Positions 11,561 to 30,891 of a stretch of 64,000 nucleotides of DNA are shown here, piece after piece. The position numbers and the translations under genes are program-made. Source of the DNA: a bacterium. GTDB taxonomy: Bacteria > Sysuimicrobiota > Sysuimicrobiia > Sysuimicrobiales > Segetimicrobiaceae. The notes below the pieces were generated by a model. It searched no databases. It was not told the DNA's origin and was given only the letters and a program-made list of their open reading frames with translations. The stretch is taken from positions 1 to 64,000 of the forward strand of contig DATGJN010000049.1 in NCBI GenBank assembly GCA_035295165.1, written 5' to 3'. How positions within the stretch are numbered: the stretch's first letter is position 1; each line of letters starts with the position of its first letter.

Positions 11561-11740
11561 GAAGCGGGCTCGCCGCCCGACGCCGCGCGGGCTCGTGTCG
11601 CGTCGTTCGACGAAAACCTGTCTGCCCTCACGTGAGGACTGTTTCATATCCGGCCCCGGGCCATGTCACCGCGTGCGTCCCATCCGTATTCCTCGTAAGG
11701 TCCATACCCGTTGCCGAGCAGCCTTAGACGGGCGCTCTCT

Positions 11741-11765
11741 GTTCGGCAGGACCTCCGCACCGAGC
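11741..11765. repeat. 25-nt interspersed hairpin repeat, copy 2
   Basis: Arms GTTCGG and CCGAGC (one G-T pair) with loop CAGGACCTCCGCA. It lies just after the 3' end of the minus-strand gene 11793-12287. Confidence 0.75.
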
Positions 11766-11792
11766 CGTTCTCGTGGACGTGAGATCTTGCGC

Positions 11793-12287: not shown

Positions 12288-12441
12288 ATTGTATCCTTTC
12301 CGTCGAATACCCCTTGCAACTTGAACATAGTGACCCCCGTTCTGAAAGACTATCAGTCGCAAAGAGCATTTCGGGCCTTCTGAGTGTTTGATGCGGCGGT
12401 CCTGCCAAACAATGAAGAACGTACTCCGCACCAAGATGTTC

Positions 12442-12466
12442 GTTCGGCAGGCCCCCCGCACCGAAC
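12442..12466. repeat. 25-nt interspersed hairpin repeat, copy 3
   Basis: Perfect arms GTTCGG and CCGAAC with loop CAGGCCCCCCGCA. It ends 18 bases before the small gene at 12485, in the gap between that gene and the minus-strand gene ending upstream. Confidence 0.8.
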
Positions 12467-12484
12467 ACCTAGTAAGCACATTCC

Positions 12485-12769
12485 ATGTGCCCCTACTGCG
12501 GCGAGCGCGACTGCGCGCACGTGATCCTGCGCTATCGGGGTCGGGACGCGATTGCTCGGCTCTATATGTGGAGTGAACTGGGCGTGAACACCGTCCATGC
12601 CGCCCCCGGTCCCTCCCTGGCAACGGAGATCCTCAACGCGCTGAACACCTACTGCTCGGTGCAGCGTGACGTCGTCTACGGCACCGAATGGGGACGAGAG
12701 TACGCGAGGCGGCAGGTTGCAACATACCTTCGGGAGATTGGGCTAGAAGTGGACAGTGGGGAGACTTAG
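12485..12769 (+). CDS. Small putative zinc-binding hypothetical protein
   Basis: A 94-residue protein that starts with a compact cysteine/histidine set, MCPYCGERDCAHVILRY, which could bind one zinc (C2, C5, C10, H12). The rest is a helical, acidic domain (GPSLATEILNALNTYCSVQR) without a known family. ATG 12485 begins right after hairpin copy 3 with no strong ribosome site. Possible roles (adaptor, small regulatory or nucleic-acid-binding protein) cannot be told apart. Confidence 0.5.
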   Translation: MCPYCGERDCAHVILRYRGRDAIARLYMWSELGVNTVHAAPGPSLATEILNALNTYCSVQRDVVYGTEWGREYARRQVATYLREIGLEVDSGET

Positions 12770-12822
12770 GGGCCACGCCCTGACGAAGCGACGCGGCCCC
12801 TCTACCTCCAGCGGCAAGTTTA

Positions 12823-13152
12823 CTAGCGCGGAGCAGTGGCCCGTTGGAACGCCGCTCTGTCGCGGTCGACCGCGGAAGCCCATGATTGAAGCGGGGTCAC
12901 ATGCCATTTGACTATCCCCCAAAACGGCAAACTGGCTAGCAGATCGCCCAGTGCTTCGTGAGAGTCTGCTTCGACCATGAAGACGCCTGCGCGTTCACCC
13001 GCCAACACACCACCCTTTATCTTACCCTCCTGTTCCCACTTGGCGAGTGTCTGAAGGCTCGGGAGTATGACGTTCTGCGCGAGTGGACCAAGGTGTTCGG
13101 GCGGCAGCAGCGCGCCCGTCTCAACGTACTTACCGGTAACCAAGAAACGCAT
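12823..13152 (-). CDS. Muconolactone isomerase-like/YciI-like small protein
   Basis: A 109-residue protein of the dimeric alpha-beta barrel type: MRFLVTGKYVETGALLPPEH at the start, then helices and the strand pattern GVLAGERAGVFMVEADS-HEAL ending in FWGIVKWHVTPLQSW. This resembles muconolactone delta-isomerase and related small barrel proteins. ATG 13152 has GGGGGTG about 7 bases upstream. True muconolactone isomerase activity is not shown by the sequence, and no catechol pathway genes are nearby; it may be a general small-molecule-binding member. Confidence 0.6.
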   Translation of the reverse strand: MRFLVTGKYVETGALLPPEHLGPLAQNVILPSLQTLAKWEQEGKIKGGVLAGERAGVFMVEADSHEALGDLLASLPFWGIVKWHVTPLQSWASAVDRDRAAFQRATAPR

Positions 13153-13295
13153 ATCCACACCCCCATAAATCAAATGTGGTGTCGGTAATGGCTTCGCGCC
13201 CTCTTTCGTCCGTGAAACGGCTGACGTAACGTCAGGTACTAATCCGTCGAGTCAGACTCCTGCCCTGACGACCGACGGAGCGCGGTTCCGGCGTT

Positions 13296-13320
13296 GTTCG
13301 GCAGGAACCCCGCACCGAAG
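13296..13320. repeat. 25-nt interspersed hairpin repeat, copy 4
   Basis: Arms GTTCGG and CCGAAG (outermost pair lost) with loop CAGGAACCCCGCA. It lies in the gene-free stretch 13153-13477, where I see nothing else. Confidence 0.75.
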
Positions 13321-13477
13321 GTCGGGCCAACCTAGCGCCAGGGATCCGTCAAGTCACGCTAGCGGGGATAGAGGGTTCGTGTGTAGTCCAGAAGAACAGG
13401 GCACTCGTGCTTCAAGGTGTTCCCCGTGATCTGTCGTGCGGTAGTTGCTTCGCATTCGCCATCAGGGAAGCGCCAGC

Positions 13478-13808
13478 GTGAGTATTCTCGCGTGGATTGT
13501 CGTCGGCATTATAGCGGGATGGCTTGCGAGAATGCTCGTGCCAGGTGAGGGTCCCGGTGGTCTCATCGGCGACCTCGTTATCGGCATCGTTGGAGCCCTT
13601 CTTGGCGGATGGATCTTTAGACAGTTGGGGCATGCCGGCGTGACCGGACTCAATATCGGTTCCCATCGTCGTGGCCTTCATCGGCGGCGTGATTCTGTTG
13701 TTGATTGTCCGCGCTGTGACGGGGAAACGGTTAGGGCCTAGGCTTAGACGGCTTCGCCCGCGCCTGAATCCAGGTGACGGGTCATGTGCGGCCGCGGCTC
13801 CGGGGTAG
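13478..13808 (+). pseudogene. GlsB/YeaQ/YmgE-family membrane protein, frameshifted
   Basis: From GTG 13478 the frame gives the classic family start SILAWIVVGIIAGWLARMLV, then PGEGPGGLIGDLVIGIVGAL and HAGVTGLNIGS. After that the frame turns arginine-rich and stops at 13741. One base over, the expected third membrane helix appears (IVVAFIGGVILLLIVRAVTG) and runs to a stop at 13806-13808. Removing one C from the CCC run at 13662-13664 restores a full-length protein of normal architecture. The family comprises small three-helix membrane proteins linked to general stress. The break is a real mutation or a sequence error. Confidence 0.75.
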
Positions 13809-13816
13809 CCGAGTTC

Positions 13817-13841
13817 GTGTTGCAGGAGCCCCGCACCGAAC
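13817..13841. repeat. 25-nt interspersed hairpin repeat, copy 5 (degenerate 5' arm)
   Basis: The loop and 3' arm (CAGGAGCCCCGCA, CCGAAC) match the family; the 5' arm reads GTGTTG, although GTTCG lies four bases further upstream (13813). It sits between the GlsB-like pseudogene and the gene at 13885. Confidence 0.65.
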
Positions 13842-13884
13842 GCCGGGAACCCTCCGCATATTCTCACTCGAGAGAGTCCACAGC

Positions 13885-14202
13885 GTGTCACGTGATGCCG
13901 AACGTATCCTAATCGACTTCCCTGGGTTTCTCCGCAGTGCCGAGGGAGGCTATATCAAGATCGAGGACTTCCTCTCGTTCGTTGCCGGCGCGTCACAGGG
14001 CAAGGGAGACACCAAGGATCGGGCGATGGCCTGGCTTCGGAAGCAAGGCGTAAGCGGGCCGATCGACCACCTCTCGCCGGCAGACGTCAGCCGACTCACC
14101 GCCGCTGCCCAGAAAGTAATCGCCGCCAAGCACGGGGCGAGACCGTCGCGTTGGTCCGTCCGCTGGCACGCCCGACCTCCCACCACTGCCAGAACCCAAT
14201 GA
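13885..14202 (+). CDS. Hypothetical protein (island cargo)
   Basis: A 105-residue soluble protein from GTG 13885 (SRDAERILIDFPGFLRSAEG), continuing with KIEDFLSFVAGASQGKGDTK and AAAQKVIAAKHGARP and ending in a basic, low-complexity tail. No family is recognised and no membrane segment is present. The frame is open upstream to 13774, but that part runs through the repeat and looks non-coding. An ATG in a different context was not found, so the start is uncertain. Confidence 0.45.
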   Translation: MSRDAERILIDFPGFLRSAEGGYIKIEDFLSFVAGASQGKGDTKDRAMAWLRKQGVSGPIDHLSPADVSRLTAAAQKVIAAKHGARPSRWSVRWHARPPTTARTQ

Positions 14203-14559
14203 CGAGGAGCCCACCGAGGGATAGCGAGCACGACTATGCCATGCAAAGGCTTCCACCGTGTGACACTCGAGCAGGCCCACCAGCCGACGATCACCACCTT
14301 GCAACACCTACGCGACGAATCGATCCGCATGGCGAAGGACTCACTCGCTACGGGGAGTGGCGATCCGCGCTCAGCTGCTTGGGGAAGGCGGCACAGTATG
14401 AGAACCAGAGTGTGGCGCTAATCCAAAGAGACGCTCTCGAGGGGGAAGCGGGCGGAGTGGAGGTGTCCGGCTCCTACGCCGCCGGAGGGGTCCGAGACGG
14501 GCAGGACGAACGACAGCGACGGGGGCGTACCATTTTGTTTCTCTTTAGGGGGTGATTCC
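14203..14559. other. Gene-free stretch inside the island
   Basis: Only short frames without family features occur here. The end of the stretch holds the ribosome site (AGGGGGTGA) of the GYD-domain gene at 14560. Confidence 0.4.
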
Positions 14560-14853
14560 GTGGCGACCTACGTCATGTTGGTCAATTTCACGCAGAAGGG
14601 AATTGAGGATATCAAGCACGGCCCCGACCGGCTCACTGCGGCAAAGGAGCGGGTCCGCAAGAGCGGGGGAGAGATCAAAGCCTTCTATCTGACGATGGGG
14701 CAATACGATGCGATCATCATCATGGAGGGCCCGAACGACGAGACGGTGGCGACGGGAATTCTCCAGGCCGCTTCTCAAGGGTACATTCGCACCCGGACCC
14801 TTCGGGCGTTTCCCGAAAACGACTACCGGAAGATCGTCGCGGCACTGCCGTAA
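14560..14853 (+). CDS. GYD-domain protein
   Basis: A 97-residue protein matching the GYD family (PF08734): MATYVMLVNFTQKGIEDIKH, then GGEIKAFYLTMGQYDAIIIM with the characteristic GQYD turn, and GYIRTRTLRAFP. These are small ferredoxin-fold, usually oligomeric proteins with no proven biochemical role. GTG 14560 follows AGGGGG at good spacing. It lies upstream of the AhpD-like selenoprotein candidate, separated by about 150 bases. Confidence 0.85.
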   Translation: MATYVMLVNFTQKGIEDIKHGPDRLTAAKERVRKSGGEIKAFYLTMGQYDAIIIMEGPNDETVATGILQAASQGYIRTRTLRAFPENDYRKIVAALP

Positions 14854-15004
14854 GCGGGATGGTAGTCACGGGTGCGCCCCCGAAGAAGACATGTGAAGTC
14901 GCACGCGACCAGTCAGTCGTCGAGTGAACCGACCCCAGAATAACGGCCCCGAGCTGTTGGCGTTAACGCCTGCCGGTGGTTAGTATTCAACGGAGGTGAG
15001 GAGC

Positions 15005-15601
15005 ATGGCGTTTATTCGCACGATTCCCCCGGAAGAAGCCGCTGACGTGCTACGACAACTCTACGACAGCGATCTCAAGAGCGGAGGCGCCGTGGCCAAC
15101 CACACTCGCGCCCTCAGCCTCCGGCCAGATGTTACGGTGGCATGGCGCGCCCTTAGCAAGGCCATCCGCACACACATCGATCCACGCCGGTACGAGTTGA
15201 TCACCACCGTGGTCGCTGCCAGTCTGCGGTGCAGCTACTGAACACTTGCACACGGGGCGGTGCTCCGTAACCAGTTTTTCAAGCCGGAAGAGGTCGAAGC
15301 CATCGTGCGCGATTACCGGAATGCCGGGTTAGCCGCTGCGGACGTCGCTATGCTCGCGTTCGCGGAGAAGGTTGCGCTCCACGCCTACCGGGTGACGAAA
15401 GAGGACGTGGATGAACTGCGGAATCACGGATTCGCCGACGACGAGATCCTCGACATCGTCCTTACGGCTGCGGCCCGGAACTTCTTCAGTCGGGTGATCG
15501 ATGCGGTGGGGGCGGAGCCCGATCCGGAGTACCTCGACCTTGAGGCAGGCTTTCGGCAGACCTTGGCAGTCGGGCGTCCATTTGGAGGGCCGGCCAAATA
15601 G
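15005..15601 (+). CDS. AhpD-like peroxidase, probable selenoprotein (in-frame TGA = Sec79)
   Basis: Read through the TGA at 15239-15241, this is a 198-residue AhpD/carboxymuconolactone-decarboxylase-fold protein. The conserved catalytic set is Glu64, Cys76, Sec79 and His83 (segment RCSY-TGA-TLAHGAVL). The spacings of 12, 3 and 4 residues equal those of Glu118, Cys130, Cys133 and His137 in mycobacterial AhpD, so the TGA falls exactly on the peroxidatic cysteine. Protein homology continues without a shift on both sides (FFKPEEVEAIVRDYR, LTAAARNFFSRVIDAVG). A SECIS-like hairpin follows the TGA. ATG 15005 has GGAGG 8 bases upstream. The alternative is a nonsense mutation of TGC/TGT, but the exact position and the hairpin argue for selenocysteine. 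The selenocysteine machinery is not in the window. Confidence 0.75.
15239..15268 (+). promoter_or_regulatory. UGA codon with bacterial SECIS-like hairpin
   Basis: Sixteen bases after the TGA starts a hairpin with stem ACGGGG/CTCCGT (one G-T pair) and apical loop CGGTG. A small apical loop with G among its first two bases, and 16 or more bases between UGA and the loop, fit the known bacterial SECIS pattern read by SelB. Confidence 0.6.
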
Positions 15602-15608
15602 TAGACCG

Positions 15609-16067
15609 ATGGAGGTGCCTGCGCTACGGCGGATCCCAATGCTGCTACGTCGCGCCCGGGTCGGGCACTTAGCTACCGCCGACCGGCGTGGACAACCCTA
15701 CGTCGTCCCCATTTGTTTTGTTTTCGACGGGTACGCGATCTTCACGCCGATCGACAAGAAACCCAAACGGGTGGCACCGCGACAACTTCGACGGGTGCGC
15801 AACATCGATGCCAACGCTCGCGTCGCCCTCATGGTGGATGCGTATCGTGAGGACTGGCGACGCCTGTGGCATATCCTCGTCCTTGGGACTGCGAAGGTGA
15901 TTCAACCTGGCGCAACGGATCACGAGCGTGCAGTGCAGTTGTTGCGTCGAAAATACCGTCAGTACCGTACGATGCGACTCGAGGATAGCTTGGTACTCCA
16001 AATCGCCCCGCACAGAATCACATCGTGGCGCGCCGGCACGCGATCACGTATTCCGCGGTCCAGCTAA
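15609..16067 (+). CDS. PPOX-class, probably F420-dependent enzyme
   Basis: A 152-residue split-barrel flavin/F420-binding protein. It shows RRARVGHLATADRRGQPYVV, then TPIDKKPKR, NIDANARVALMVD, and the WRRLWHILVLGTAKVI strand, as in the Rv0121-like group of PPOX proteins that is thought to use coenzyme F420. The closest known relatives reduce or bind small redox substrates, but the reaction is unproven. ATG 15609 lies 8 bases after the AhpD-like stop, so the two are probably co-transcribed. The next gene is an LLM-type oxidoreductase that often also uses F420. Confidence 0.8.
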   Translation: MEVPALRRIPMLLRRARVGHLATADRRGQPYVVPICFVFDGYAIFTPIDKKPKRVAPRQLRRVRNIDANARVALMVDAYREDWRRLWHILVLGTAKVIQPGATDHERAVQLLRRKYRQYRTMRLEDSLVLQIAPHRITSWRAGTRSRIPRSS

Positions 16068-16094
16068 CTCCCGGATGATGAGGTGGGATGGTCG

Positions 16095-17012
16095 TCAAAC
16101 GACACGGCGAATCTCCTCCAAGATCCTGAGAACGTCGCTCTCGGAGTGTACCCCGGGTGAGAACGTGGCGTCAAAGAAGATCTCATTCACCCCAAGTGTT
16201 TTAACAGCCGCGATGTCAGCTTTGATTTCCTCCAGTGTGCCAGAGAATATCCAGCGCTTTTCCCCCAATGGCTGTTGGGTTATCGAGAGATTAGCGCGCA
16301 CCACGACCTCTACGGAGGCGGGGTCTCTCCCTGCAGCCCTTGCCATGTCCTTGAGGCCCGCCATCATCTGCTTCATTCCGTCCACCGGCACGGCTACCGG
16401 ATTCCACCCATTTGCCAGCGTTGCTGCCCGCTTGAGGGCGCTAGGAGAGAACGCAGCGAGGTACAGTGGCGGATGAGGTTTCTGCACAGGTTTGGGCTGG
16501 ATGATGGACTTAGGGATTTGAAAATAGTGGCCGTGAAACTCCACAGGGTCAGTCGTCCAGATTGCCTTGAGAACCTGAATGAATTCGTCTGCACGCTTGC
16601 CCAGTCCGTTGGGGGAGATTCCCACCGCATCATACTCGTCCTTGGACCACCCTTGGCCAAGCCCGACGCGTAGGCGCCCCGCCGAGAAGATGTCCAGAGT
16701 AGTCAGGCGTCGTGCCAGCATCACGGGATTGTAGAATGGCATATCGAGCACACTGGTACCGAGTGCAATGCGCTTCGTTTGGGCCGCCACAAACGTGAGC
16801 GTCTCAAGGGGATCAAAGACAATTTTGTATGCCTCCGGCAGCGAACCGTCCGGGGTTGCACCATAAGGCGTCTGGGGTTTAACCGGGTAGAGCAACCGCT
16901 CCGTGACCCACACGCTATCGTAACCTAAGGCCTCCGCACGTTGTGCGACCCGTACGATCGAATGAGGATTTGCACTGGAGCCCACTTGGGGAAGGACAAA
17001 ACCCGTACGCAC
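16095..17012 (-). CDS. LLM-class flavin/F420-dependent oxidoreductase
   Basis: A 305-residue luciferase-like TIM-barrel protein. Typical segments are RTGFVLPQVGSSANPHSIVR, AEALGYDSVWVTERLLYP, LGTSVLDMPFYNPVMLARR, LDIFSAGRLRVGLGQGWSKD and the C-terminal GTLEEIKADIAAVKTLGVNE. GTG 17012 is preceded by AGGAGG about 9 bases upstream, which fixes the start although the frame is open further up. It is convergent with the PPOX gene. The family uses FMN or F420 to oxidise or reduce diverse substrates; F420 is favoured by the neighbour, but this is inference. Confidence 0.85.
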   Translation of the reverse strand: MRTGFVLPQVGSSANPHSIVRVAQRAEALGYDSVWVTERLLYPVKPQTPYGATPDGSLPEAYKIVFDPLETLTFVAAQTKRIALGTSVLDMPFYNPVMLARRLTTLDIFSAGRLRVGLGQGWSKDEYDAVGISPNGLGKRADEFIQVLKAIWTTDPVEFHGHYFQIPKSIIQPKPVQKPHPPLYLAAFSPSALKRAATLANGWNPVAVPVDGMKQMMAGLKDMARAAGRDPASVEVVVRANLSITQQPLGEKRWIFSGTLEEIKADIAAVKTLGVNEIFFDATFSPGVHSESDVLRILEEIRRVV

Positions 17013-17139
17013 CAGTCCACCCTCCTGACCTCGGAATCTGATTAATACCGACGAGGTCACGCACGATGGTAATCTGACAACGCCGTTTTGGGTTCCTGCA
17101 CTCCTGTGTTCGAGGAGCCACCCTACCAAGATAAGATCA

Positions 17140-17424
17140 TCAAGCGGACCCCCTACCTCGCAGAGCCTTGAGCGCCGCATGGCGCAGTCCATCCTTCAGC
17201 CTCTCGCGATACTCAACTTCGACGACGAGCGTCGGCTTCACCCAATGCGGCGGCAGGTCGGTCCGTAGCTCACCCCAGTGGTCGCGGAGAGTCGGAACGG
17301 GCGTGAATGGGCAGGTCTCGGCGGGCGTCGCCTTGAGCTCTTCGAGGATCACTTTGCGGGTATCGACCGGAAGCCCGCTGCCTGCCAGTCCCGCATACAC
17401 GAGTTTGCCCTTGCGGTCGTACGC
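17140..17424 (-). pseudogene. ATP-dependent DNA ligase, C-terminal fragment
   Basis: About 95 residues reading AYDRKGKLVYAGLAGSGLPV, then CPFTPVP, HWVKPTLVVEVEYRERLKDG and LRHAALKALRGRG. This is the last part of the OB-fold domain of LigD/LigC-type ATP-dependent ligases. The catalytic nucleotidyltransferase domain is absent: going upstream, homology ends at about 17425, where integrase sequence on the opposite strand begins. It is therefore a gene fragment left by recombination. Confidence 0.8.
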
Positions 17425-17431
17425 CGAGACC

Positions 17432-18581
17432 CTGCTGCACCAGCGGATCTATGAAGTGCGTTCGGGCAAGTACCCGATTCTTGCTAAGCGCACACGAATA
17501 ATCTTCGCGGCCTTTGCCGAAGAGTGGCAGACGAAGCATTTGGTCCGTGTGCGAGCCTCAAGCGCCAAGCGATACCGTGAGCTACTCCAACAGCAGTTGC
17601 TACCAGAGTTCGGAGACCTGCTGCTTGCTGGCATCACCGTTTCGCTTGTACAGACGTTCATGGCGGAGAGTATACGGTCCGGCAAACTTGCGCCCACGAC
17701 GATCAACAGCGCAGTCGCCTTGCTCAAACAGATGCTAGCGTCTGCCGCGGACTGGGGCTATCTTACCACGTCGCCGATTGCCAAGGTACGGAAACTCCCG
17801 ATTCCGCGACGGTCTCTGCCGCTCTGGACGCCGGCCGAACTCCGACGGTTCCTCCTGGTGGTCCCTGGTGCGTGGCGTCCCTTGTGGCTCGTGGCGACGT
17901 TCACAGGACTTCGCCCCGGCGAGATCCAGGCGATGCGATGGACCGATCAAAACTGGCCTGATTTCACGGCCAACAAGATCCACGTCACGATGTCCTACGA
18001 GGCACGATCGAAGGTGCTTGGGGCCCCGAAGACCGACCGGTCCGTGCGAGACGCGGATATGGTTCCGACCGGGTGTCGGATCCTGCAATCGCGTCCGAGT
18101 CGTGCGCATGGCGGACTCGTGTTCCCCGGGGCTGGGGGAGGAGTCTTCAGCCGGGACACCATGAGGGCGGCGTGGGAGCGTACGATCTCTGCGGCGCGAG
18201 TGCGTCCGCTTCGGCCTTATGATCCGCGGCATACGTTCGCGTCGCTCCTGATTGCGGCCGGCAAAAACCCCACTCTACATCGCCCGTCAGATGGGCCACC
18301 ACTCGGCTGGCTTCACTCTTGACACTTACGGGCACCTGATGGAGTCCGCGCCCAAGCGTCAGGTCGAGTGGATTGACGAGCTTGTCTTTCCTGAGGGGTT
18401 CGAATCTGCACTTAATTTGCACTTGTACAGCGCTCCGATCGATTCAGAACCGTGCAGTTCTGTTCTATCGGGGGACAGGTCAGACCCCTTGTATGACGGG
18501 CTTCCCGGTAGTGTCGTGCCGAACGATGCAGAACAGTGCGTGGTGCCCCCAGCGAGATTCGAACTCGCGTTACCGGCTTGA
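17432..18581 (+). pseudogene. Tyrosine integrase of the island, 5'-truncated and frameshifted
   Basis: Integrase homology starts abruptly (LLHQRIYEVRSGKYPILAKR) without the N-terminal arm-binding part. It continues through the core-binding SAM-like domain (VRASSAKRYRELLQQQLLPE) and the catalytic domain, with the first arginine in TGLRPGEIQAMRW and the PYDPRHTFASLL box. At the CCCC run 18268-18271 the frame shifts by one base; in the other frame the end is intact (LYIARQMGHHSAGFTLDTYG), with the catalytic tyrosine in DTYGH. The shifted frame runs into the tRNA-Glu end. Both defects make an active recombinase unlikely. Confidence 0.88.
18406..18425 (+). repeat. Tandem GCACTT repeats, possible integrase arm sites (right)
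   Basis: Two copies of the GCACTT core 11 bases apart (CTGCACTTA and TTTGCACTTG), in the same orientation and spacing as the left-end pair at 9989-10010, about 115 bases inside the right attachment core and inside the 3' part of the integrase. Confidence 0.45.
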
Positions 18582-18618
18582 AGGGCCGATGTCCTAGGCC
18601 AACCTAGACGATGGGGGC
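18541..18618 (-). tRNA. tRNA-Glu (TTC), island insertion site
   Basis: A full cloverleaf on the minus strand: acceptor GCCCCCA/TGGGGGC, D arm with GTCTAGGTTGGCCTAGGAC, anticodon stem TCGGC/GCCGG around the loop CCTTCAA (anticodon TTC), T arm GCGAG-TTCGAAT-CTCGC, then A and an encoded CCA. Unusually, position 33 is C where U is nearly universal. The last 29 bases are duplicated at 9884-9912. A possible -10 (TATGAT) lies about 20 bases upstream. Confidence 0.93.
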
Positions 18619-21898: not shown

Positions 21899-23203
21899 AT
21901 GGAGATTACTCTCAGCCCCGAGACAACGCGGCGGGTTCGCGACGTGCTCGGGGACGATGTGGACCTGTCCCCCGGCGCCGTGCCATCCGCGCTGGCGAGG
22001 CTCGCGGTTGAGGCGCCGCGTGTATACTCGCAGATCCTCACGGAACTGTCGGGGACGGAGATCCGGCTCGACAGCGAGCGTGTGCTCGTTCGACGGCGCT
22101 GGTGGAGCGTGGTGCGGCGCCACCTATTTGGGTGGGCGGAGTACGAGAGCGACGCGGGGGACCGGCTGGTCGCCAAGCGCCACGTCGCGGCGGCGGTGCC
22201 GCTCGGATTGGCCGGCGTGATTCTTCTCCTCCTGGCCGGCTCCGCGGTGTTTCGACACCATGCGCCCGGCGCGGGCGGTCGCCGTCCGGCGGTCGCAGCG
22301 GTGCCGCACACGACATTCGCCCTGCCGCATGCCGCTGCGTCCACGCAGGTGCTCGCCGCTCACCAGACCATGTCCCCGCCGCTGGTTAACCTGCCGATTC
22401 CTCCGCTCGGGCTCCTGGCGTTAGGTGCGGCTGCGAGCGCGCCTGCGGCGCAGGCGGCATCCAGTGCTGAGCCGCCGCGAGATCCCTTGGTGTTCCAGTC
22501 CGATCCGGAGCCGTCTGCGGCGACGACCACGGCAACACCTGCGTCGCACGACGCGGGCGTGGACGCTGCAGCGGGGAGGGGTTCTCCGATCGTCTACGAT
22601 CGCGACCGAGACGAGGCCGAATCGGTACCCGCCGCTGCCAGGGCCACATCCGTGGGACGCGGACCGATGGACGTCGGGAGCGCAGGACAACTCTTGGCCG
22701 CGGGCATGCGCCTTGAAGCGCGCCTCGCCACCGGCGTACTGGTGGCATCGGGCGGGTTGCCCTCGCCGGCGATCGCCGAGACCAGCGGCCCAGTGTTCAC
22801 GTGGCTCGGACACGCGACGCTGGGCGTGGACGGGCGCGTGCAGATCGAATTCACCGTGGCCCGACGCGGTGACGTTGTTCGAGGCGTCGCTCTGGACCCC
22901 GATCGACTCGTGCCGGGACTGCCCGGTCGGACGGAGTTGCGGCAGCCGCGGGCGGCGGCGGCGGCGCTGACAGCGGCGGCGCGTGCGGTCGCGGAGTATG
23001 CGCGCGCGCTCGCTCAGCAAGGCCTCGCCCTGGCCGGGAGTTGGGGTCAGATGACGCTGGGACAAGCGGCGCCGCCCTGGGCCTACTTTGCCTCGTCCTT
23101 CGCGGACGGTATTGCGCCGCGCGGCGACGTCCCGGGACCCGTGGAGACCAGCGAGATCTCCGCGGGGACACCCCTGCTCATCCTGGTGACGGAGGCGCCG
23201 TGA
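21899..23203 (+). CDS. VirB10/TrbI-like protein, first gene of the T4SS-like cluster
   Basis: A 434-residue bitopic protein with a cytoplasmic N-terminal region of about 95 residues, one membrane span (about residues 96-118, LGLAGVILLLLAGSAVF), a long Ala/Pro-rich linker, and a C-terminal domain beginning near LLAAGMRLEARLATGVLVAS, with FTWLGHATLGVDGRVQIEFT. This layout and the C-terminal pattern resemble VirB10/TrbI, which links inner and outer parts of type IV secretion machines. The similarity is moderate, and the call rests partly on its position before the VirB2-, VirB3- and VirB4-like genes. ATG 21899 is used; a GTG four codons upstream is possible. It may be co-regulated with the divergent protease gene. 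Confidence 0.6.
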   Translation: MEITLSPETTRRVRDVLGDDVDLSPGAVPSALARLAVEAPRVYSQILTELSGTEIRLDSERVLVRRRWWSVVRRHLFGWAEYESDAGDRLVAKRHVAAAVPLGLAGVILLLLAGSAVFRHHAPGAGGRRPAVAAVPHTTFALPHAAASTQVLAAHQTMSPPLVNLPIPPLGLLALGAAASAPAAQAASSAEPPRDPLVFQSDPEPSAATTTATPASHDAGVDAAAGRGSPIVYDRDRDEAESVPAAARATSVGRGPMDVGSAGQLLAAGMRLEARLATGVLVASGGLPSPAIAETSGPVFTWLGHATLGVDGRVQIEFTVARRGDVVRGVALDPDRLVPGLPGRTELRQPRAAAAALTAAARAVAEYARALAQQGLALAGSWGQMTLGQAAPPWAYFASSFADGIAPRGDVPGPVETSEISAGTPLLILVTEAP

Positions 23204-23204
23204 A

Positions 23205-23534
23205 ATGTCCGACCCCATCACGCGCCGGATCCTCGCCAGGGCTGCCGCGGCAACCGCCGCCGCAGGTGGGCTAGCTGTGTCCCCGTCCAGCGCTGCCGCG
23301 CAGACGACGCAGTCCGGCGGCGACCTCTTTGCACCGTTGACCAACCTGTTCAACGAGGCGGCGCTCAGCCTGTCAGGCGCCTTCGGGCTCGCCTACGCGA
23401 CGGCGGCGCTGCTGGTCGCGGGCGCGGTGATCGTTGCCGATCATCGGAACGGGGTGCGCAACGCCCTGTGGGTGATCATCGGGTCCGTCATCCTGTTCTT
23501 CGGCGGTCAGATCATCCGGATGATTCACGGCTGA
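23205..23534 (+). CDS. VirB2/TrbC-like pilin
   Basis: A 109-residue protein with the typical layout of VirB2-type pilins: an N-terminal signal sequence (ARAAAATAAAGGLAVSPSSA, cleavage likely after AAAQ or SAAA), a short linker, and two hydrophobic helices (LSLSGAFGLAYATAALLVAG, LWVIIGSVILFFGGQII) joined by a charged loop (DHRNGVRN). Such subunits build the conjugative-type pilus or a short channel. ATG 23205 overlaps the region just after the VirB10-like stop, with GGAGG about 10 bases upstream. It is followed after 4 bases by the VirB3-like gene. Confidence 0.75.
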   Translation: MSDPITRRILARAAAATAAAGGLAVSPSSAAAQTTQSGGDLFAPLTNLFNEAALSLSGAFGLAYATAALLVAGAVIVADHRNGVRNALWVIIGSVILFFGGQIIRMIHG

Positions 23535-23538
23535 CGCG

Positions 23539-23859
23539 ATGCTTCCGCAGCACCCCGTGTACCGCAAACTCGACTCGCCAGTGACGTTGCTCAGCGTAGA
23601 GTTGGAGGACTGGTTCGGACTCGGCGTGGCGTTCGTCGTCTTATCGCGCGTGAGCGATCTTGTCATCGGAGGTGCGCTGGGGTGGCCGCGCGCGGAGGCT
23701 GTCGCGTCACTGCTCATGACCGGATTGTTGTTTGTCATTTGGCGCCGTGTGCGGGAGCGAACTCCGCGCCACTACCTCCGTCACCTGCTAGAGTATCTCG
23801 GCGAGCCTCACGTCTACGAGCTTGACCCGGATGTCGACGCCAATCCCTACCTGCGGTGA
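23539..23859 (+). CDS. VirB3-like protein
   Basis: A 106-residue membrane protein: short N-terminus (LPQHPVYRKLDSPVTLLSVE), two adjacent hydrophobic segments (WFGLGVAFVVLSRVSDLVIG, AVASLLMTGLLFVIWRRV), and a charged tail rich in His, Arg and acidic residues. VirB3 proteins have this size and layout and are encoded directly before VirB4, as here, where the VirB4-like start lies 10 bases after this stop. It probably anchors the ATPase to the inner membrane. Confidence 0.75.
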   Translation: MLPQHPVYRKLDSPVTLLSVELEDWFGLGVAFVVLSRVSDLVIGGALGWPRAEAVASLLMTGLLFVIWRRVRERTPRHYLRHLLEYLGEPHVYELDPDVDANPYLR

Positions 23860-23869
23860 CCGTCTTGTG

Positions 23870-26350
23870 ATGCGGAGCGACCCGGCCGGAAGCCTCACGC
23901 GCGAGCTTCCGTATTGGACGGTCGGCGATGGTGTCGTGGTGTTGCGCGATGGGAGCTACCGGATCGGTTTTGAGATCACGCTTCCCGGGACGGAAGTGTG
24001 GAACGCCGCACGCCTAGCCCGGAGCAACGACCACCTGCGAACGCTGTTGAACGCGGCGGTGCCGGAGGGTGAATGCCTCCGCGTCATCGTCGAAGTGCAC
24101 GCGGACTACACGGACGTGCTTCGAGCGTACGCGGAGGGATGCCGGTCGCCGCACCCGGTCGTATGTGATCTGCACCGTCGACGGGTGGTCGCGTGGAGCC
24201 GTGCACACGCGGACGAGCGCCTCACCAACTACCGACTGTTTTTCGATCTTTCGTACCATCCGGCCCGGCGTGCGCGACGCTGGTGGGCGTCGATCGACGC
24301 GGCCGTGTATGGGCACCATCTCGAGGAGGTGCGGTTTCTCCGGGATGCGATGGCTGTGCACGCTGACCGCGCAGGGTTTCGCGCCAGGCCGATGACTGAC
24401 GCGGCCCTCGTGGGCGTGGTCTGGCGGTACTTCAACCCGGGCCGAAAGCGCACCGGGGCCCCTCCGCCGGTGCCGGCGGGGAGCCAGGAGGTGGAGTTCC
24501 CCCGGCGCCTGCTCGCGACTTGGCCGACGCTCGGGCGGCCCTCGTTGCGGACCGCGCTCGCGCGGTCGGATCTCTATCGACGATGGGACTTTCTCTGGAT
24601 GGATGGCTTCGCCCATGCGGTTGTTGCCATGGACTTGTTGCCCGACCGCCCCACGTCGCCGAACGTGCTCGCGCCGCTGCTCAGTCTACCGGGATCCTGT
24701 TGGATCGTCATGGAGGCATGGAACGACCCGCGATCCGAGCAGGTCAAGCGGCTCGAGCTCAAGAGCCGGCTCAGCCGGCAGGCGGTTCACGCGCAGGACG
24801 GGGGTGATTCGAACTCGCGCGCTGTGGAACGCCAGGTGGCGAGCGCGCTCGACCTGGTGCAACTTACCGGCGAGCGTGTGATGCGCGTCGGCGCCGCGGT
24901 CGTGCTGCAGGAGCGCACCCCGGAACGCGCGCGCGAAGCGGCGCATCGTGCGCTCGACGCGTTCCGGCAGATTCCCGGAGTTGACGCCCGGATCGAGTCG
25001 GTCGCGCTCCGCCGGCAGTTCTTTCAGCTTGCGCCGTTCAGCGGGTTGCCGAACGAACGCCTCCTTCGCATGCTGACGAGCAACGCCGCCGACTTCGTTC
25101 CCTGCTACGCGCCATGGCGGGGCGGGGGCCGCCCCGTGTGTCCGCTTCTGACACGCGGGGAGAGCCTCGTGAGCCTCGATCCGTTCGACCCGCGGCTGCC
25201 GTCATGGAACGCCGTGGTTGTGGGCGAGTCCGGCGGTGGAAAGACGCATTTTGCGATCGCGTGGCTGTCGCACTTGCTCACGCTTGACCCGGTGATCGTG
25301 ATCGTGGACAAAGGCGGCGCGTACCGGGCGTTCTGCGACGTGTACGGTGGGCAGCACGTGCGGCTCGATCCGACAGCGGACGTAGCGGTCAACCCGTTCG
25401 AGCTCCTTCCGGGGGAGATCGAACCGGACCCGGCGCATCTCGTGCTCCTCCGTAGTTTGGTCGCGCTGATGGTGGTCGAGCCGGCGGTCGAACCAAGCCG
25501 GCAGGAACTTGCCGTGCTCGAGTCTGCGATTCGGCAGACGTACACCCGCGCCGCGGGTGCCCCGGTCTTGCTGCGGGACGTCGTGCGGACCCTGCGTACG
25601 TTCGAGCAGGTCGGGCGGCAGGATGCCGGCCCCGAGGAGTGGGCGGTCGCCCGCGGGATTGCACGCCGCCTCGAGCGTTGGACGGGGCACGGCGTGTACG
25701 CGCGACTGCTCGATCGGCCGTCCACCGTGGATCTTCACGCGCCGATCGTCTGTCTGGACACCGAAGGGTTGGACGCTGAGTATCCCGAGCTGGCGCCGAT
25801 CGCCGCGTTGCTCGCCAACCACCTGATCTACCGCCGGATCCGTACCGAAGCGCTGCGGCCGAAGTACGTCGTGAGCGACGAAACCTGGGCGGCGCTGCTC
25901 AACCCGGTCGCCGCCGAGTCCCTGGTGGGAATGTTTCGACGGTTTCGGAAGTTCGGGGCGGGGGTCATGGCGATCAGCCAGCGGCTCGAGGACTTTGAGG
26001 GAGAACACGCGCGCGGCATCTTGGAAAACGCGCCGATGAAGGTTCTGACGCGCACCGCGAACGTGGACCGAGTCGCGCCCGTGCTGCACCTCGACGATCA
26101 GTACCGCGCGCTCTGGAAAAGCCTTGGCCAACGCCGCGGCGTGTTCAATGAAGTCCTGGTCGTGTTGGATCTTCTCGAAGGACGAGAAGGGGGCGTGGTC
26201 GTCGTCCGGGACATTCCGGAGGACTACGTGATTGCGACGACGACCGCGGCCGAACGGCTCGAACGGGACCGGCTCGGTCGCGAAATCGGCGTGTGGCCAG
26301 CGATCCAACAGCTCGCGGCGCGACGGCGCACGCCGCCGCGCCGCGATTGA
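23870..26350 (+). CDS. VirB4-family ATPase
   Basis: An 826-residue ATPase that would power subunit assembly or transport. The Walker A motif is GESGGGKT (residues 452-459) after the family strand LPSWNAVVV, and Walker B is KYVVSDETW (about 665-673). Around them are the VirB4/TraC-type segments DPVIVIVDKGGAYRAFCDVY and FRRFRKFGAGVMAISQRLED. The N-terminal half (about 1-440) is the VirB4-specific domain with little fixed motif. ATG 23870 is the best start; GTG 23867 and ATG 23831 are alternatives overlapping virB3. No VirD4-type coupling ATPase or VirB11 is found near, so this is the only motor of the cluster. Confidence 0.92.
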   Translation: MRSDPAGSLTRELPYWTVGDGVVVLRDGSYRIGFEITLPGTEVWNAARLARSNDHLRTLLNAAVPEGECLRVIVEVHADYTDVLRAYAEGCRSPHPVVCDLHRRRVVAWSRAHADERLTNYRLFFDLSYHPARRARRWWASIDAAVYGHHLEEVRFLRDAMAVHADRAGFRARPMTDAALVGVVWRYFNPGRKRTGAPPPVPAGSQEVEFPRRLLATWPTLGRPSLRTALARSDLYRRWDFLWMDGFAHAVVAMDLLPDRPTSPNVLAPLLSLPGSCWIVMEAWNDPRSEQVKRLELKSRLSRQAVHAQDGGDSNSRAVERQVASALDLVQLTGERVMRVGAAVVLQERTPERAREAAHRALDAFRQIPGVDARIESVALRRQFFQLAPFSGLPNERLLRMLTSNAADFVPCYAPWRGGGRPVCPLLTRGESLVSLDPFDPRLPSWNAVVVGESGGGKTHFAIAWLSHLLTLDPVIVIVDKGGAYRAFCDVYGGQHVRLDPTADVAVNPFELLPGEIEPDPAHLVLLRSLVALMVVEPAVEPSRQELAVLESAIRQTYTRAAGAPVLLRDVVRTLRTFEQVGRQDAGPEEWAVARGIARRLERWTGHGVYARLLDRPSTVDLHAPIVCLDTEGLDAEYPELAPIAALLANHLIYRRIRTEALRPKYVVSDETWAALLNPVAAESLVGMFRRFRKFGAGVMAISQRLEDFEGEHARGILENAPMKVLTRTANVDRVAPVLHLDDQYRALWKSLGQRRGVFNEVLVVLDLLEGREGGVVVVRDIPEDYVIATTTAAERLERDRLGREIGVWPAIQQLAARRRTPPRRD

Positions 26351-26451
26351 ACGGCCGGGCCTTGCGCGTGCGCGGCATCGGTGCAAGGGGACGCACCGCG
26401 ATGCGTTCCGCGTGCGTTACTGGACGCTTCACACCAAGGAGGAAGCGCGCC

Positions 26452-27555
26452 ATGGCGACCCATCGCGAACGGTGCTCCGCCAGGTCGGTCCGCACGGTTG
26501 GTACGTCGTTCAACGTGTCATGTCGCCGGGCCTGGATGATGGGGCTGCTTGTACTTTTGGTCGCAACCGTCATGTTGGAGATCGAGTCGGCATTCGTTCA
26601 GCCGGCACGGGCGGGAACGGCACCCGCGGCGGACGGTCCGAGCTCGGCGCCGGTGCCCCTGCCGCCGCTGGGCCCCGCGCGTCCGCTGCCACCGTTCGTT
26701 CCGATCCTTCCCCTGGCGCAGTCGGAACCTGGGGACGCAAATCCGACGTCGATCCTCAACGATCTCGAGAGCGTGATCGCCGGCGTGCAGCAGGTGCTCG
26801 ACGCCGTCGCCGGGTGGGTGCGCAGTGCACAAGAGGCGACCGGGAACGCCATTGCGGAGATCATCGGCGCTACGCCTGGGGATCTCCCTCAAGGGGTCGA
26901 TCTTGCTCGGCTGCTCGGCTCGGTGCCGGGGCTCCCGGCCGATCTTCGACGCATGCTGGCTGCCGTGCTCGCCGGGTGGCAGAGCCCGGTCCAACCGGGT
27001 TCACCGGTTGCCGACCACCAAGCGTACGTCTCCGCCGACCCCGTGCTCGCGCATGACGCGATTGGCGTCGCCGTGACCTCCGCCGCCCTGGCAGCCGGAA
27101 ACATCCGCCAGCAGCTCGCGACCTCGGTAGCGTCTCAGGACGCCGCCGCGGTGGCTGCGGACCCCGTGTTGCCGGCGGCCGCCCGGGCCGCGCGCCAGGT
27201 CGGCGCGGCGCTCGTGCAGGGTGCACCGCAGTTGCCGAGCTCTCGCGCGGGGATTGAAATGCTCGTTGCGGGAATGGGGGCCGGCATGCAACAACAGGCC
27301 GATCTCGAGACGGCGCTCGCGGAACGCCTTACCGTGCTCGCACAACAACTTGCGGCCCTCAGCCAACAAATGGGGACGCTTGGAGAGACGACCGCCGCGT
27401 TGGCCGCACGCGATGCGGAGCGGGATCGGCGGGAGCTCGATGCGCGGCTTGGTCTGATGGACGCGGTTCGCGCCGGTGGCCAGGTCCTGTCACAAGCGCT
27501 CGCCGGTGCCGGCGAACCGTCGGGGGTGGAGTTGCCGCTCGTGTCGTTGTACTGA
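26452..27555 (+). CDS. VirB5/TrbJ-like exported protein
   Basis: A 367-residue protein with a long basic N-terminus and one hydrophobic export segment (MGLLVLLVATVMLEIESAFV) followed by PARAG, a likely cleavage site. The mature part is Ala/Gln-rich and strongly helical, with a coiled-coil stretch near the end (ERLTVLAQQLAALSQQMGTL). VirB5/TrbJ proteins, minor pilus components, are helical exported proteins encoded between VirB4 and VirB6; the placement here is the same. Direct sequence similarity is weak, so the assignment rests mainly on position and architecture. ATG 26452 has AAGGAGG about 9 bases upstream. Confidence 0.6.
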   Translation: MATHRERCSARSVRTVGTSFNVSCRRAWMMGLLVLLVATVMLEIESAFVQPARAGTAPAADGPSSAPVPLPPLGPARPLPPFVPILPLAQSEPGDANPTSILNDLESVIAGVQQVLDAVAGWVRSAQEATGNAIAEIIGATPGDLPQGVDLARLLGSVPGLPADLRRMLAAVLAGWQSPVQPGSPVADHQAYVSADPVLAHDAIGVAVTSAALAAGNIRQQLATSVASQDAAAVAADPVLPAAARAARQVGAALVQGAPQLPSSRAGIEMLVAGMGAGMQQQADLETALAERLTVLAQQLAALSQQMGTLGETTAALAARDAERDRRELDARLGLMDAVRAGGQVLSQALAGAGEPSGVELPLVSLY

Positions 27556-27582
27556 CGCCGCCGCCTCGGAGCCCAAGCGTAC

Positions 27583-28617
27583 GTGACCGGCGACATCGAG
27601 CACGCGATCGCAGACATCTTCACGGCCCTTGAGACATGGTTGGTCTCCACCGGCGCCACGGCGTCAATGGGACGGTTTGCGTGGGCCGTCTTTACCGTGC
27701 TGTGGCTGGGGCACGTTGGCGCGTCCAGCCGTCCCGGCCGGCAGCTGGACCTGATCGAGGCGTTTGGACGTCTGGTGGTGGCCGGCGGGCTCCTCAGCGC
27801 GGTCGGGCCGCTCACGCAGACGATCGTCTTCGGGTTTGACGCGTTTCGGGATGCAGGTACCGCGGTGCTCAACGGGCTGATCGGTCAGAACTGGGATCAA
27901 TTCGTGCAGGGATGGCTCGTTCCACAGATGACTTCCCTGTTCAACATCGCGGGCCCGTGGTTTACGTACCCGTGGGCCTTGACGGTGCTCGTAGTCGGGT
28001 TGCTGCTCGGTGTGCTCTTGTTTGCCGTGGGCGTCATGGTCTACCTCGCCATCCTGTTCTTCGCGCACCTGACACTGTTGCTGGCGACGTTCCTCGCGCC
28101 GTTGGCGATAGCGCTGCTGGCAGCGCCCGCCACCCAGCGCTGGACCGGCCGCTGGGCGGTCGTGGTCGTGCGGACGGCCCTCATCGTGTTTTGTGTCCGA
28201 GTGATCCACGCCGCCGTACTGTACCTCGCCGTCATCGTGCCGGTGCGCGACGCCGCGTCCGGCTTCCAGCAGGGGGGGCTCCAGCCGGGTGCCGACCCTG
28301 CGGCCGCGCTCGGTGCGTTGCTCTTCAATCTCGTCGGGTATCTGTTCGTGATGCTGGTGGGCACGGGGATCGGAATCTACGCGATGCTGCGGGCGGAGCA
28401 CCTCGTCGGGCAGTTCGTTGAGGGCACAACGTTTGGCCAGGGCGTGCTCTCCGGACCGATGTGGCTTCAACGACAGACGGCGGGGTGGATCGAGCGCCAA
28501 AGTCGCGATCAACTCGAGCCGAACATTGCGATGGGATCCGCCAGCCCCTGGGCCGAAGGGATGGGGGGCGCACAGGAGGCCACGATCATGCGTGCGACCG
28601 GCCGATTCGGCGCGTGA
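27583..28617 (+). CDS. VirB6/TrbL-like polytopic membrane protein
   Basis: A 344-residue protein with about six membrane spans: FAWAVFTVLWLGHVG, an amphipathic middle (GRLVVAGGLLSAVGPLTQTI), the strong hairpin ALTVLVVGLLLGVLLFAVGV and VYLAILFFAHLTLLLATFLA, and later LFNLVGYLFVMLVGTGIGIY. The AxFLAPLAIALLAAPATQRW region resembles the conserved centre of VirB6/TrbL channel proteins. The C-terminal 80 residues are soluble and polar. GTG 27583 follows a GGAG 11 bases upstream. It would form the inner-membrane pore of the apparatus. Confidence 0.75.
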   Translation: MTGDIEHAIADIFTALETWLVSTGATASMGRFAWAVFTVLWLGHVGASSRPGRQLDLIEAFGRLVVAGGLLSAVGPLTQTIVFGFDAFRDAGTAVLNGLIGQNWDQFVQGWLVPQMTSLFNIAGPWFTYPWALTVLVVGLLLGVLLFAVGVMVYLAILFFAHLTLLLATFLAPLAIALLAAPATQRWTGRWAVVVVRTALIVFCVRVIHAAVLYLAVIVPVRDAASGFQQGGLQPGADPAAALGALLFNLVGYLFVMLVGTGIGIYAMLRAEHLVGQFVEGTTFGQGVLSGPMWLQRQTAGWIERQSRDQLEPNIAMGSASPWAEGMGGAQEATIMRATGRFGA

Positions 28618-28624
28618 CCGCGCC

Positions 28625-29215
28625 ATGATGCGTGCGCCCAGATGGGTCGCGGCCGTAGGTGTCGCGGTCGGTACCGGTGTGGTGCTGGCGTTGGGGCCGA
28701 CGGTCGGGGGATCGTCAGGGACGCCGCTCCCAGTTGCCGCGAGTGCCCCCGCGCTTCCCGCCGGCGCCACCGGCGCAACCCTGTCGTTCGTGGACGCAGC
28801 GTCGGGTGTGGTCGAAGTCGTGCGGCACTGGCCAGCCGCCCCCGCTGACGTTGCGGTCGTTCCGTTCGTGCCCTATTTCTGGGACGGATGCCCTGGAGAT
28901 GGCGCAATCATGATGTTGCTCACCGGGCCGCCGACCGCAGGCGCCCTCGGTCGGCGCGTGGCCGCGGTCCTCGAAGCCGGCGGAGTGCGCGCCGGCTCCA
29001 CCTCGGATGCGCTGGCGCGAATCATCGCCTCGCTGCGAACCCCCGGCTCGCCAGCGGTTGAATCGCTGAAGACAATCGCGCCGTGGGTGAGTGACCTCGC
29101 GACATACGAGCGCGAGGGATACGCCGTGTTCCTGTTCGTGCGTTGGACCGGCATGGCATGCGCCGTGACGCTGCGGGCGGTGCCCGAAGGGTACGGGATC
29201 CCATACGTTCGTTGA
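28625..29215 (+). CDS. Exported protein of unknown function at the end of the T4SS-like cluster
   Basis: A 196-residue protein with a signal sequence or N-terminal anchor (RWVAAVGVAVGTGVVLALGP) and a globular mature part (AAPADVAVVPFVPYFWDGCP, APWVSDLATYEREGYAVFLF). Two cysteines, in DGCPGD and MACAVTL, could form a disulfide outside the membrane. No family is recognised. The ATG lies 7 bases after the VirB6-like stop, so it belongs to the same operon, and I infer an accessory role in the apparatus. Confidence 0.65.
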   Translation: MMRAPRWVAAVGVAVGTGVVLALGPTVGGSSGTPLPVAASAPALPAGATGATLSFVDAASGVVEVVRHWPAAPADVAVVPFVPYFWDGCPGDGAIMMLLTGPPTAGALGRRVAAVLEAGGVRAGSTSDALARIIASLRTPGSPAVESLKTIAPWVSDLATYEREGYAVFLFVRWTGMACAVTLRAVPEGYGIPYVR

Positions 29216-29516
29216 GAGCCCTTTCGAGCGCGTCGCGGTCGCGGTGAGGCGACGTCGCGGGCGGCGCCTGACGAGCGCGAACCAGACTCGTCCTCCGCAG
29301 TACATGCCAGACACCACGGCGCGCGGCGATCAGGGACGTGCGTGCTCTGCCGATCCAGGCCATCCCCGTGACCCATGCTTGTGTGTGCGGGGCCGCTCCT
29401 CCGCCGGCTGCGCGGCGCTTCGAGCCCACGGCGTCCGACCATCGTCACCGGTGCATAGGACTCCGCGGCCAACGGGATGAACTGAGCCGATGTCACCCGC
29501 CGGAGGTCTGCGGTCT
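29216..29516. other. Intergenic region between T4SS-like cluster and MFS gene
   Basis: No protein-like frame is seen. It should hold the end of the cluster transcript and the promoter of the MFS gene, but I cannot point to a clear -10/-35 pair or terminator hairpin. Confidence 0.35.
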
Positions 29517-30821
29517 ATGTCCGTTACGCGAAACACCCACATTGAGCGGGCGGACCGACCTCCGGTCGCCGGGATCGTTGGGGCGCGGGCCCGCCGCGTC
29601 CTGGCGATCTGCTGCGGCGTGCACGCGCTCCATGACGGATACACCGACGTGCTCTACGTGCTCTTGACCCTGTGGCGCACCGAGTTCCGCCTCGGGTATG
29701 CCGAGGTAGGCCTGTTGCGCGCGCTGTATACCGGCGCCATGGCGGTGTTCCAGGTTCCCGTCGGCCTGCTCGCGGAGCGCATCGGGACCCGAGGAGCGCG
29801 CTATGTCCTGCTCGCCCTGGGGACGGGTGTGGCCGGCCTCGGCTACATCGCGGCGGGCGCGAGCACCGGTTTTGCCCTCCTTGCCGCTGCACTCGTCTTC
29901 AGCGGAGCCGGTTCGAGCACCCAGCATCCTGTCGGCGCGGATCTGGTCGCATACGCGCACCGCGATTCCACCTCGCGGCGGATCGCACTCAGCACATACA
30001 ATTTTTCTGGCGATCTCGGCAAGATGGCGATGCCCGCGGCGGTCGCGTGGACGGTGACGCTGCTTCCGTGGCGTTCAGCGGCCGTGCTGCTGGGCGCGGT
30101 CGGCGTCGCCGCAGCCTGCATCGTACTGCCGCTGCTCCGCCGCGTGTGGCCCGACGACTCCGTGACGGCCGCCCCTTCGTCGCACCCCCACGGCACCGAC
30201 GCGGATGCGCACGCCGGGGGAGTGCCCGGGGAGGATGTGCGCGAGACGAGACGATACCGCGGGTTCCCGCTGTTGTTTACTATCGGCCTGATCGACAGCG
30301 CGACCCGTATGGGGTTTCTCACGTTTCTCCCGTTCCTCCTCATCGCGAAGGGGGCGACCGGGCCGACGATCGGTCTCGCGCTGAGCCTGATCTTCGCGGG
30401 TGGCGCGGCCGGCAAGCTGTTGTGCGGCCTGTTCGGCGCGCGGTTCGGCATCCTCGCGACCGTGCTCGCGACCGAAGGGCTGACCGCGGCGGGCATCCTC
30501 GCGTTGTTGCCGTCGACGCTGGGCGCAGGTCTCGTGCTGCTGCCCGTGCTCGGCGTGGCCCTCAACGGGACGTCGTCGGTGCTCTACGGCAACGTGCCGG
30601 CGCTGATCCCGCCGGCGAGACGGACGCGCGCGTTCGGATGGTTCTACACCGGCACGATTGGCGCCGGCGCCGTTGCGCCTGCCCTGTACGGCGTGGTCAG
30701 CGACGCGGCCGGCGTGCCCGCCACGCTGACGATCGTGGCAGGTGTCGTCCTACTCACCCTGCCGCTCGCCTGGGGCCTGCGCCAGGTGCTGCGCGCATCC
30801 GGAGAGACGGCTTCCAGGTAG
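29517..30821 (+). CDS. MFS transporter, fosmidomycin-resistance-like
   Basis: A 434-residue major-facilitator protein with twelve expected helices. The N-terminal HALHDGYTDVLYVLLTLW and the loop LLAERIGTRGARYVLL (motif A-like) resemble the Fsr-type drug/metabolite exporters. A charged, His-rich cytoplasmic loop (SSHPHGTDADAHAGGVPG) joins the two halves. ATG 29517 has GGAGGT 9 bases upstream and is preferred over GTG/ATG at 29490. The substrate cannot be deduced. Confidence 0.82.
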   Translation: MSVTRNTHIERADRPPVAGIVGARARRVLAICCGVHALHDGYTDVLYVLLTLWRTEFRLGYAEVGLLRALYTGAMAVFQVPVGLLAERIGTRGARYVLLALGTGVAGLGYIAAGASTGFALLAAALVFSGAGSSTQHPVGADLVAYAHRDSTSRRIALSTYNFSGDLGKMAMPAAVAWTVTLLPWRSAAVLLGAVGVAAACIVLPLLRRVWPDDSVTAAPSSHPHGTDADAHAGGVPGEDVRETRRYRGFPLLFTIGLIDSATRMGFLTFLPFLLIAKGATGPTIGLALSLIFAGGAAGKLLCGLFGARFGILATVLATEGLTAAGILALLPSTLGAGLVLLPVLGVALNGTSSVLYGNVPALIPPARRTRAFGWFYTGTIGAGAVAPALYGVVSDAAGVPATLTIVAGVVLLTLPLAWGLRQVLRASGETASR

Positions 30822-30891
30822 CGGCCCACCACGTCAGCGCTGCGGTAGAGGCGACACAGGCACGGGCGCGGGCCGCAGCGAACACGATCGC

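Follow-up and report, generated by a model that had tools for sequence, protein, structure and literature searches.

A seven-gene type IV secretion cluster on one contig

The window analysed here is a stretch of 64,000 nucleotides (positions 1 to 64,000) of contig DATGJN010000049.1, referred to as C49, from a bacterial genome of the family Segetimicrobiaceae (assembly GCA_035295165.1, hereafter the host genome or G000; 4.79 Mb, 121 contigs, 97.9% complete). At 21899-29215 it contains a type IV secretion system (T4SS) cluster of seven intact genes, all on the + strand and arranged head-to-tail. If 23870 and 28625 are used as the starts of the VirB4 gene and of gene 7, the gaps measure 1, 4, 10, 101, 27 and 7 bp (Table 1). 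For VirB4, a TTG codon at 23822 is an alternative start. Named contigs related to C49 belong to metagenome-assembled genomes filed under Bacillota, Armatimonadetes and Terrabacteria group bacterium ANGP1, the last of which has since been renamed Ca. Segetimicrobium genomatis and placed in the phylum Ca. Sysuimicrobiota (CSP1-3).

An initial annotation of the window had described seven tightly packed T4SS-like genes, and this description was borne out. Five of them are T4SS parts, namely VirB10 (by predicted fold), VirB2, VirB3, VirB4 and VirB6. VirB2 and VirB4, the latter present as a single copy in the host genome, are firmly supported by Pfam and NCBIfam profiles; the putative VirB3 and VirB6 matched weakly, with scores below cut-off, and are backed by position and conservation. 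Genes 1, 5 and 7 matched no Pfam or NCBIfam family.

The product of gene 1 was assigned by structure prediction. An AlphaFold2 model based on 13 sequences shows cytoplasmic N-terminal helices, a membrane helix at residues 93-119, a proline-rich stretch of low confidence (121-262) and a beta domain with inserted helices (271-434), over most of which the predicted local distance difference test score (pLDDT) is about 90. When the model was compared with solved structures, the top 13 rows were all VirB10-family chains (Z 10.7 to 5.5; next row 3.6), among them DotG, F-type TraB, Xanthomonas VirB10, CagY, TrwE and ComB10, and the best Foldseek E-value was 2.1e-5. By sequence search, only one of the 13 family members touched the Pfam family TrbI (E 0.02). 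The predicted fold thus identifies gene 1 as a VirB10-like outer-membrane core protein, as the initial annotation had supposed for 21899-23203.

Of the two remaining proteins, which had been annotated as VirB5-like and as an unknown exported protein, gene 5 indeed occupies the VirB5 position, while its homology to VirB5 is unproven: a profile search against PDB sequences returned helical bundles and coiled coils, nothing relevant. Gene 7 encodes an exported protein of this lineage without a recognised fold; its structure model (pLDDT 47) was unusable. The corresponding PDB profile searches with genes 1 and 7, and with the VirB9-like protein described below, gave nothing relevant, and hhalign comparisons of the families with single R388 sequences of VirB9, VirB10, VirB5 and VirB8, which are weak tests, gave no support.

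Table 1. Genes of the C49 cluster, the adjoining coupling-protein site and the gene pair on contig C66. C49 coordinates are window positions.
Feature	Position	Strand	Basis
Gene 1 (p1), VirB10-like, 434 aa	21899..23203	+	AlphaFold2 model and PDB comparison
Gene 2, VirB2/TrbC pilin, 109 aa	23205..23534	+	Pfam TrbC E 7.3e-11, above cut-off
Gene 3, VirB3/TraL-like, 106 aa	23539..23859	+	Pfam TraL 0.005, below cut-off; position; conservation
Gene 4, VirB4/TraC ATPase, 826 aa from ATG 23870	23870..26350	+	P-loop_TraG 2.6e-18, TIGR02746 6e-49
Gene 5, exported helical protein, VirB5 position	26452..27555	+	one N-terminal hydrophobic stretch; conserved alignment
Gene 6, VirB6/TrbL-like membrane protein, 344 aa	27583..28617	+	Pfam TrbL 0.025, below cut-off; hydrophobic segments; position
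Gene 7, exported protein, 196 aa, two conserved Cys	28625..29215	+	conserved in family and in G015, G017, G029
VirD4a site of all 11 family relatives; here a major facilitator superfamily (MFS) transporter gene, 29490-30821	29216..30821	+	
VirB9-like exported protein	G000:C66:28335-29402		family orthologue of G015/G017 exported protein
VirB11-like ATPase	host genome, from C66:29408		orthologue adjoining VirB9-like gene

Candidate partner genes at two further loci

The initial annotation had also stated that core-complex genes and a coupling protein were lacking and that the composition was unusually minimal. Comparison with related genomes supported neither statement. In G015 and G017, which belong to other families of the same order, an ATPase of the SpoIIIAA/T2SSE kind is encoded directly upstream of VirB10 and is itself preceded by an exported protein, such that genes for VirB9-like, VirB11-like, VirB10, VirB2 to VirB6 and gene 7 proteins form one contiguous block. 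Orthologues of the first two lie side by side on contig C66 of the host genome, and the pair was kept together in all nine further family loci fetched. Given that the two genes stand directly upstream of VirB10 in two other families, an ancestral operon was split. In a tree of the ATPases, the VirB11-like proteins of the family form the sister group of those encoded at the cluster (96/97), and a longer paralogue branches separately. Most family genomes encode two such paralogous SpoIIIAA-like ATPases (in the host genome G000:C66 and G000:C74), one T4SS-associated and the other longer.

The exported protein of C66 is with moderate confidence called VirB9-like from its profile matches. All 10 members examined contain a PF13629 domain, which also fits secretin-type proteins, and one of the 10 weakly matched CagX (VirB9; E 0.001). 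The N-terminal domain is co-linear with nine plasmid VirB9 proteins (hhalign E 2e-4, probability 48; E at least 0.1 for three control families), whereas the C-terminal domain did not align with them. The search for orthologues of the C66 family gave one further weak match, at G000:C28 (1.5e-6).

Coupling proteins were traced with PF02534. All 11 other genomes of the family have a VirD4 gene (VirD4a) directly after gene 7, and all 12 have a second one (VirD4b) at a separate place. In the host genome the MFS gene is the only gene between gene 7 and the helicase gene, there is no VirD4a match above chance, and PF02534 matches VirD4b and nothing else. VirD4a has been lost from its place in the host genome, the only one of the family to lack it there. 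In the VirD4 tree, whose long branches leave the deep joins unsure, VirD4a groups with the cluster-linked VirD4 proteins of Thermus, Deinococcus and G029 (99/96), and VirD4b stands apart.

VirD4b of the host genome is encoded on contig C88, where it is preceded by a gene for a Replic_Relax protein (PF13814, E 6e-19), in a neighbourhood that is largely syntenic across the family. Every one of the 12 family genomes encodes Replic_Relax, and so does G036; G029 gave a weak match, short of the cut-off, in a position immediately upstream of VirB10 that recalls the Thermus arrangement. Replic_Relax was found in none of seven tested order members without this type of VirB4, nor in G015 or G017. The initial annotation was thus right that VirB8, VirB9, VirB11, VirD4 and a relaxase are missing beside the cluster; VirB9-like, VirB11-like, VirD4 and Replic_Relax proteins are nevertheless encoded elsewhere in the genome. 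It had named a complete set of missing subunits just outside the window as grounds for giving up its view; such subunits do exist, though on other contigs, with the exception of VirB7 and VirB8, which were not found.

Conservation and descent of the cluster

The cluster is syntenic across the family, as the initial annotation had suggested examining. All seven genes were found in nine of the 11 family relatives (in G011 split over two contigs) and, where contigs reach far enough, the relatives carry the Lon gene upstream and/or the helicase gene downstream. G010, which is 64% complete, matched only in gene 7, VirD4a and the helicase. Outside the family but within the order, the block recurs in three genomes from other families: G015, G017 (gene 6 being assigned there by position, not by BLAST) and G029. 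The order was represented by 43 genomes, and cluster-type VirB4 is encoded by 11 of the 12 from the family and by four of the 31 others (G015, G017, G029 and G036); a match in G034 (5.6e-4 over 51 columns) was treated as chance and left out of these counts.

In the VirB4 tree each of three genera is held together. The ratio of nonsynonymous to synonymous substitution (omega) was 0.09-0.10 for VirB4, compared with 0.07-0.14 for the controls Lon and helicase and about 0.3 for gene 1; these values are rough, as synonymous divergence is near saturation for pairs involving the host genome. The cluster is vertically inherited and under purifying selection. Because the Lon and helicase flanks are common to the relatives, the VirB4 tree follows the genera and omega resembles that of the controls, the proposal that the cluster is chromosomally fixed between housekeeping genes holds.

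The stretch between gene 7 or VirD4a and the helicase (window 29216-30890) differs in gene content in nearly every relative (L026, L027, L028, L029) and looks like an insertion hot spot. Upstream, a tyrosine integrase gene (17168-18322) adjoins a tRNA-Glu gene (18541-18618), the 3' end of which is repeated over 25 bp at 9884; window positions 9884-18618 make up an integrated island some 8.7 kb long, and the T4SS cluster lies outside it. G005 contains a second, divergent T4SS cluster (L042, G005:C11:12000-31000) with a VirB4 about 33% identical and a VirD4 of its own, and a cluster related to this second one is present in G036 (L040).

A proposed domesticated conjugation-type system and its possible functions

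Every component is of a known kind; what is new is the combination and the lineage. In a plasmid collection, the best VirB4 matches were from Thermus plasmids (32-33% identity, 97-98% coverage). On pTTJL1802 of T. thermophilus JL-18, a VirB10-like and a Replic_Relax-like gene lie upstream of a run ordered VirB2-3-4-gene5-6-VirD4, and downstream of that run are genes for a transglycosylase and for an ATPase of the type II secretion/type IV pilus/T4SS kind. A plasmid of NEB1569 carries a similar module with a gene annotated as replication-relaxation, and the version on pTA69 of T. aquaticus Y51MC23 has been described as a conjugation system (PMC4605624). The Thermus modules thus share with the family system the gene order and the nearby VirB10-like, VirB11-like and Replic_Relax genes, but they are plasmid-borne, form one block and include a transglycosylase, whereas the family system is chromosomal, is distributed over three loci and has in addition gene 7 and a second VirD4.

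More distant systems resemble it in single traits. The rvh T4SS of Rickettsiales is likewise vertically inherited and scattered over several chromosomal islets (PMC2653234), but belongs to the vir/MPF-T lineage of intracellular bacteria, has duplicated VirB6 and is not closely related. T4SSs of Patescibacteria are phylum-wide and chromosomal, mostly lack a relaxase and often have the coupling protein distant from virB4 (PMC12102498); they are however of the monoderm MPF-FATA type, while the family system is of the two-membrane type with VirB10. These cells have two membranes, Omp85 being present in 18 of 19 genomes. In the library searched, no paper joins 'CSP1-3' with 'type IV secretion', and the main text of an article on this phylum (PMC11604079) contains no mention of secretion, outer membrane, competence, pili, conjugation or lipopolysaccharide.

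The seven genes would make up a third of a conjugation-type system that is almost complete. We consider it probable, though by no means certain, that this is a domesticated conjugation-type T4SS, split over three loci, that moves cellular DNA between cells. A module like those of the Thermus plasmids would have become fixed in the chromosome of the family ancestor and would now persist as three conserved loci: VirB10-2-3-4-gene5-6-gene7, normally followed by VirD4a; the VirB9-like and VirB11-like pair; and Replic_Relax with VirD4b. Their products may build one envelope-spanning machine, to which the C49 cluster would supply the pilus, the channel and the main ATPase, with VirD4a and VirD4b feeding DNA into it and Replic_Relax standing in for the relaxase. 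The cargo would be cellular DNA passed between cells, both cargo and direction being deduced. In the host genome either VirD4b would serve alone or the machine would run without a coupling protein.

Several observations weigh against this interpretation. The three loci are joined into one putative machine because of their co-distribution and the operon fusion, and DNA transfer is the likeliest function as judged from gene content. The profile matches behind the VirB9 identity are weak, VirB7 and VirB8 were not detected (VirB8 PF04335 in 0 of 17 genomes, with control genomes equally silent), and the relaxase family PF03432 was found in 0 of 17 genomes in a search that did not cover other MOB relaxase classes. 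VirD4b falls outside the lineage of the cluster's own VirD4. Finally, in the stretch fetched from G006 (L033, G006:C34:177000-196000) there is no detectable VirB10, only the 3' part of VirB2 and no Lon, which may reflect decay of the genes, a rearrangement or contigs joined during assembly.

The direction of transport could also be inward, the T4SS having taken over the role of ComEC as a bacterial counterpart of archaeal Ced, which we regard as rather unlikely. ComEC, ordinarily the channel for DNA uptake, was found in none of the 12 family genomes, whereas 10 of the 11 other members of the order that were tested have it, as does G061. DprA, by contrast, persists in 10 of the 12 family genomes. 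This pattern is consistent with, and no demonstration of, a replacement of transformation by the T4SS, since the loss of ComEC may be a single historical event unrelated to it; moreover, VirD4 and Replic_Relax favour export over import, and DprA had no match in the host genome or G006. Ced is a domesticated chromosomal conjugation machinery that transfers cellular DNA (PMC9905601), and the family T4SS is, like it, chromosomal and vertically inherited; it differs in that Ced is archaeal, lacks a VirB10-type outer-membrane part and is a demonstrated importer. Uptake through ComEC in the manner of the VirD4-less Helicobacter ComB system, which works with ComEC (PMC12857230), was rejected for the family, which has VirD4 and no ComEC. 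G015 and G017 are of similar composition to ComB, with channel genes and ComEC and without VirD4 and Replic_Relax, and their version is possibly a ComB-like uptake system.

VirD4-bearing chromosomal T4SSs of other bacteria can deliver proteins to neighbours, and protein delivery, for example of toxins into neighbouring cells, would be a comparable role. It seems quite improbable here, as one member has lost the coupling protein with the channel still intact and the loci inspected showed no recognisable effector or immunity genes next to the cluster, although no systematic effector search was made. For the host genome only, the cluster might after the loss of VirD4a build an attachment pilus like Bartonella Trw: the seven genes remain intact without VirD4a, and VirD4-less Trw-type systems are known (PMC12857230). 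The retention of VirB9-like, VirB11-like, VirD4b and Replic_Relax genes makes such a pilus very unlikely. A truly minimal machine of seven genes, suggested by the lack of any partner gene beside the cluster in the host genome, was rejected as highly implausible once partners were found at C66 and C88, some of which directly adjoin the cluster in genomes of other families. Least credible of all is a remnant of an integrated conjugative element. The integrase/tRNA-Glu island ends only about 3.3 kb upstream, but its 25-bp repeats (9884, 18541) exclude the cluster, VirB4 follows genus limits, and the synteny of cluster and neighbours across the family led us to reject this origin.

Returning to a domesticated conjugation-type system, a T4SS judged from one locus may seem minimal merely through operon splitting. 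We also put forward, as a tentative extension with the odds against it, that the conjugation machine is the cell's own DNA-exchange organ and replaces ComEC-based transformation, the part of a classical relaxosome being played by Replic_Relax and VirD4b, as a bacterial Ced counterpart in a two-membrane cell. Should the reading as a domesticated system hold, an entire uncultured bacterial family without ComEC would retain a conjugation machine that is inherited vertically and serves an ordinary chromosomal role. Whether a T4SS can stand in for transformation in bacteria could then be tested, and the Thermus plasmid relatives would offer a tractable model for it.

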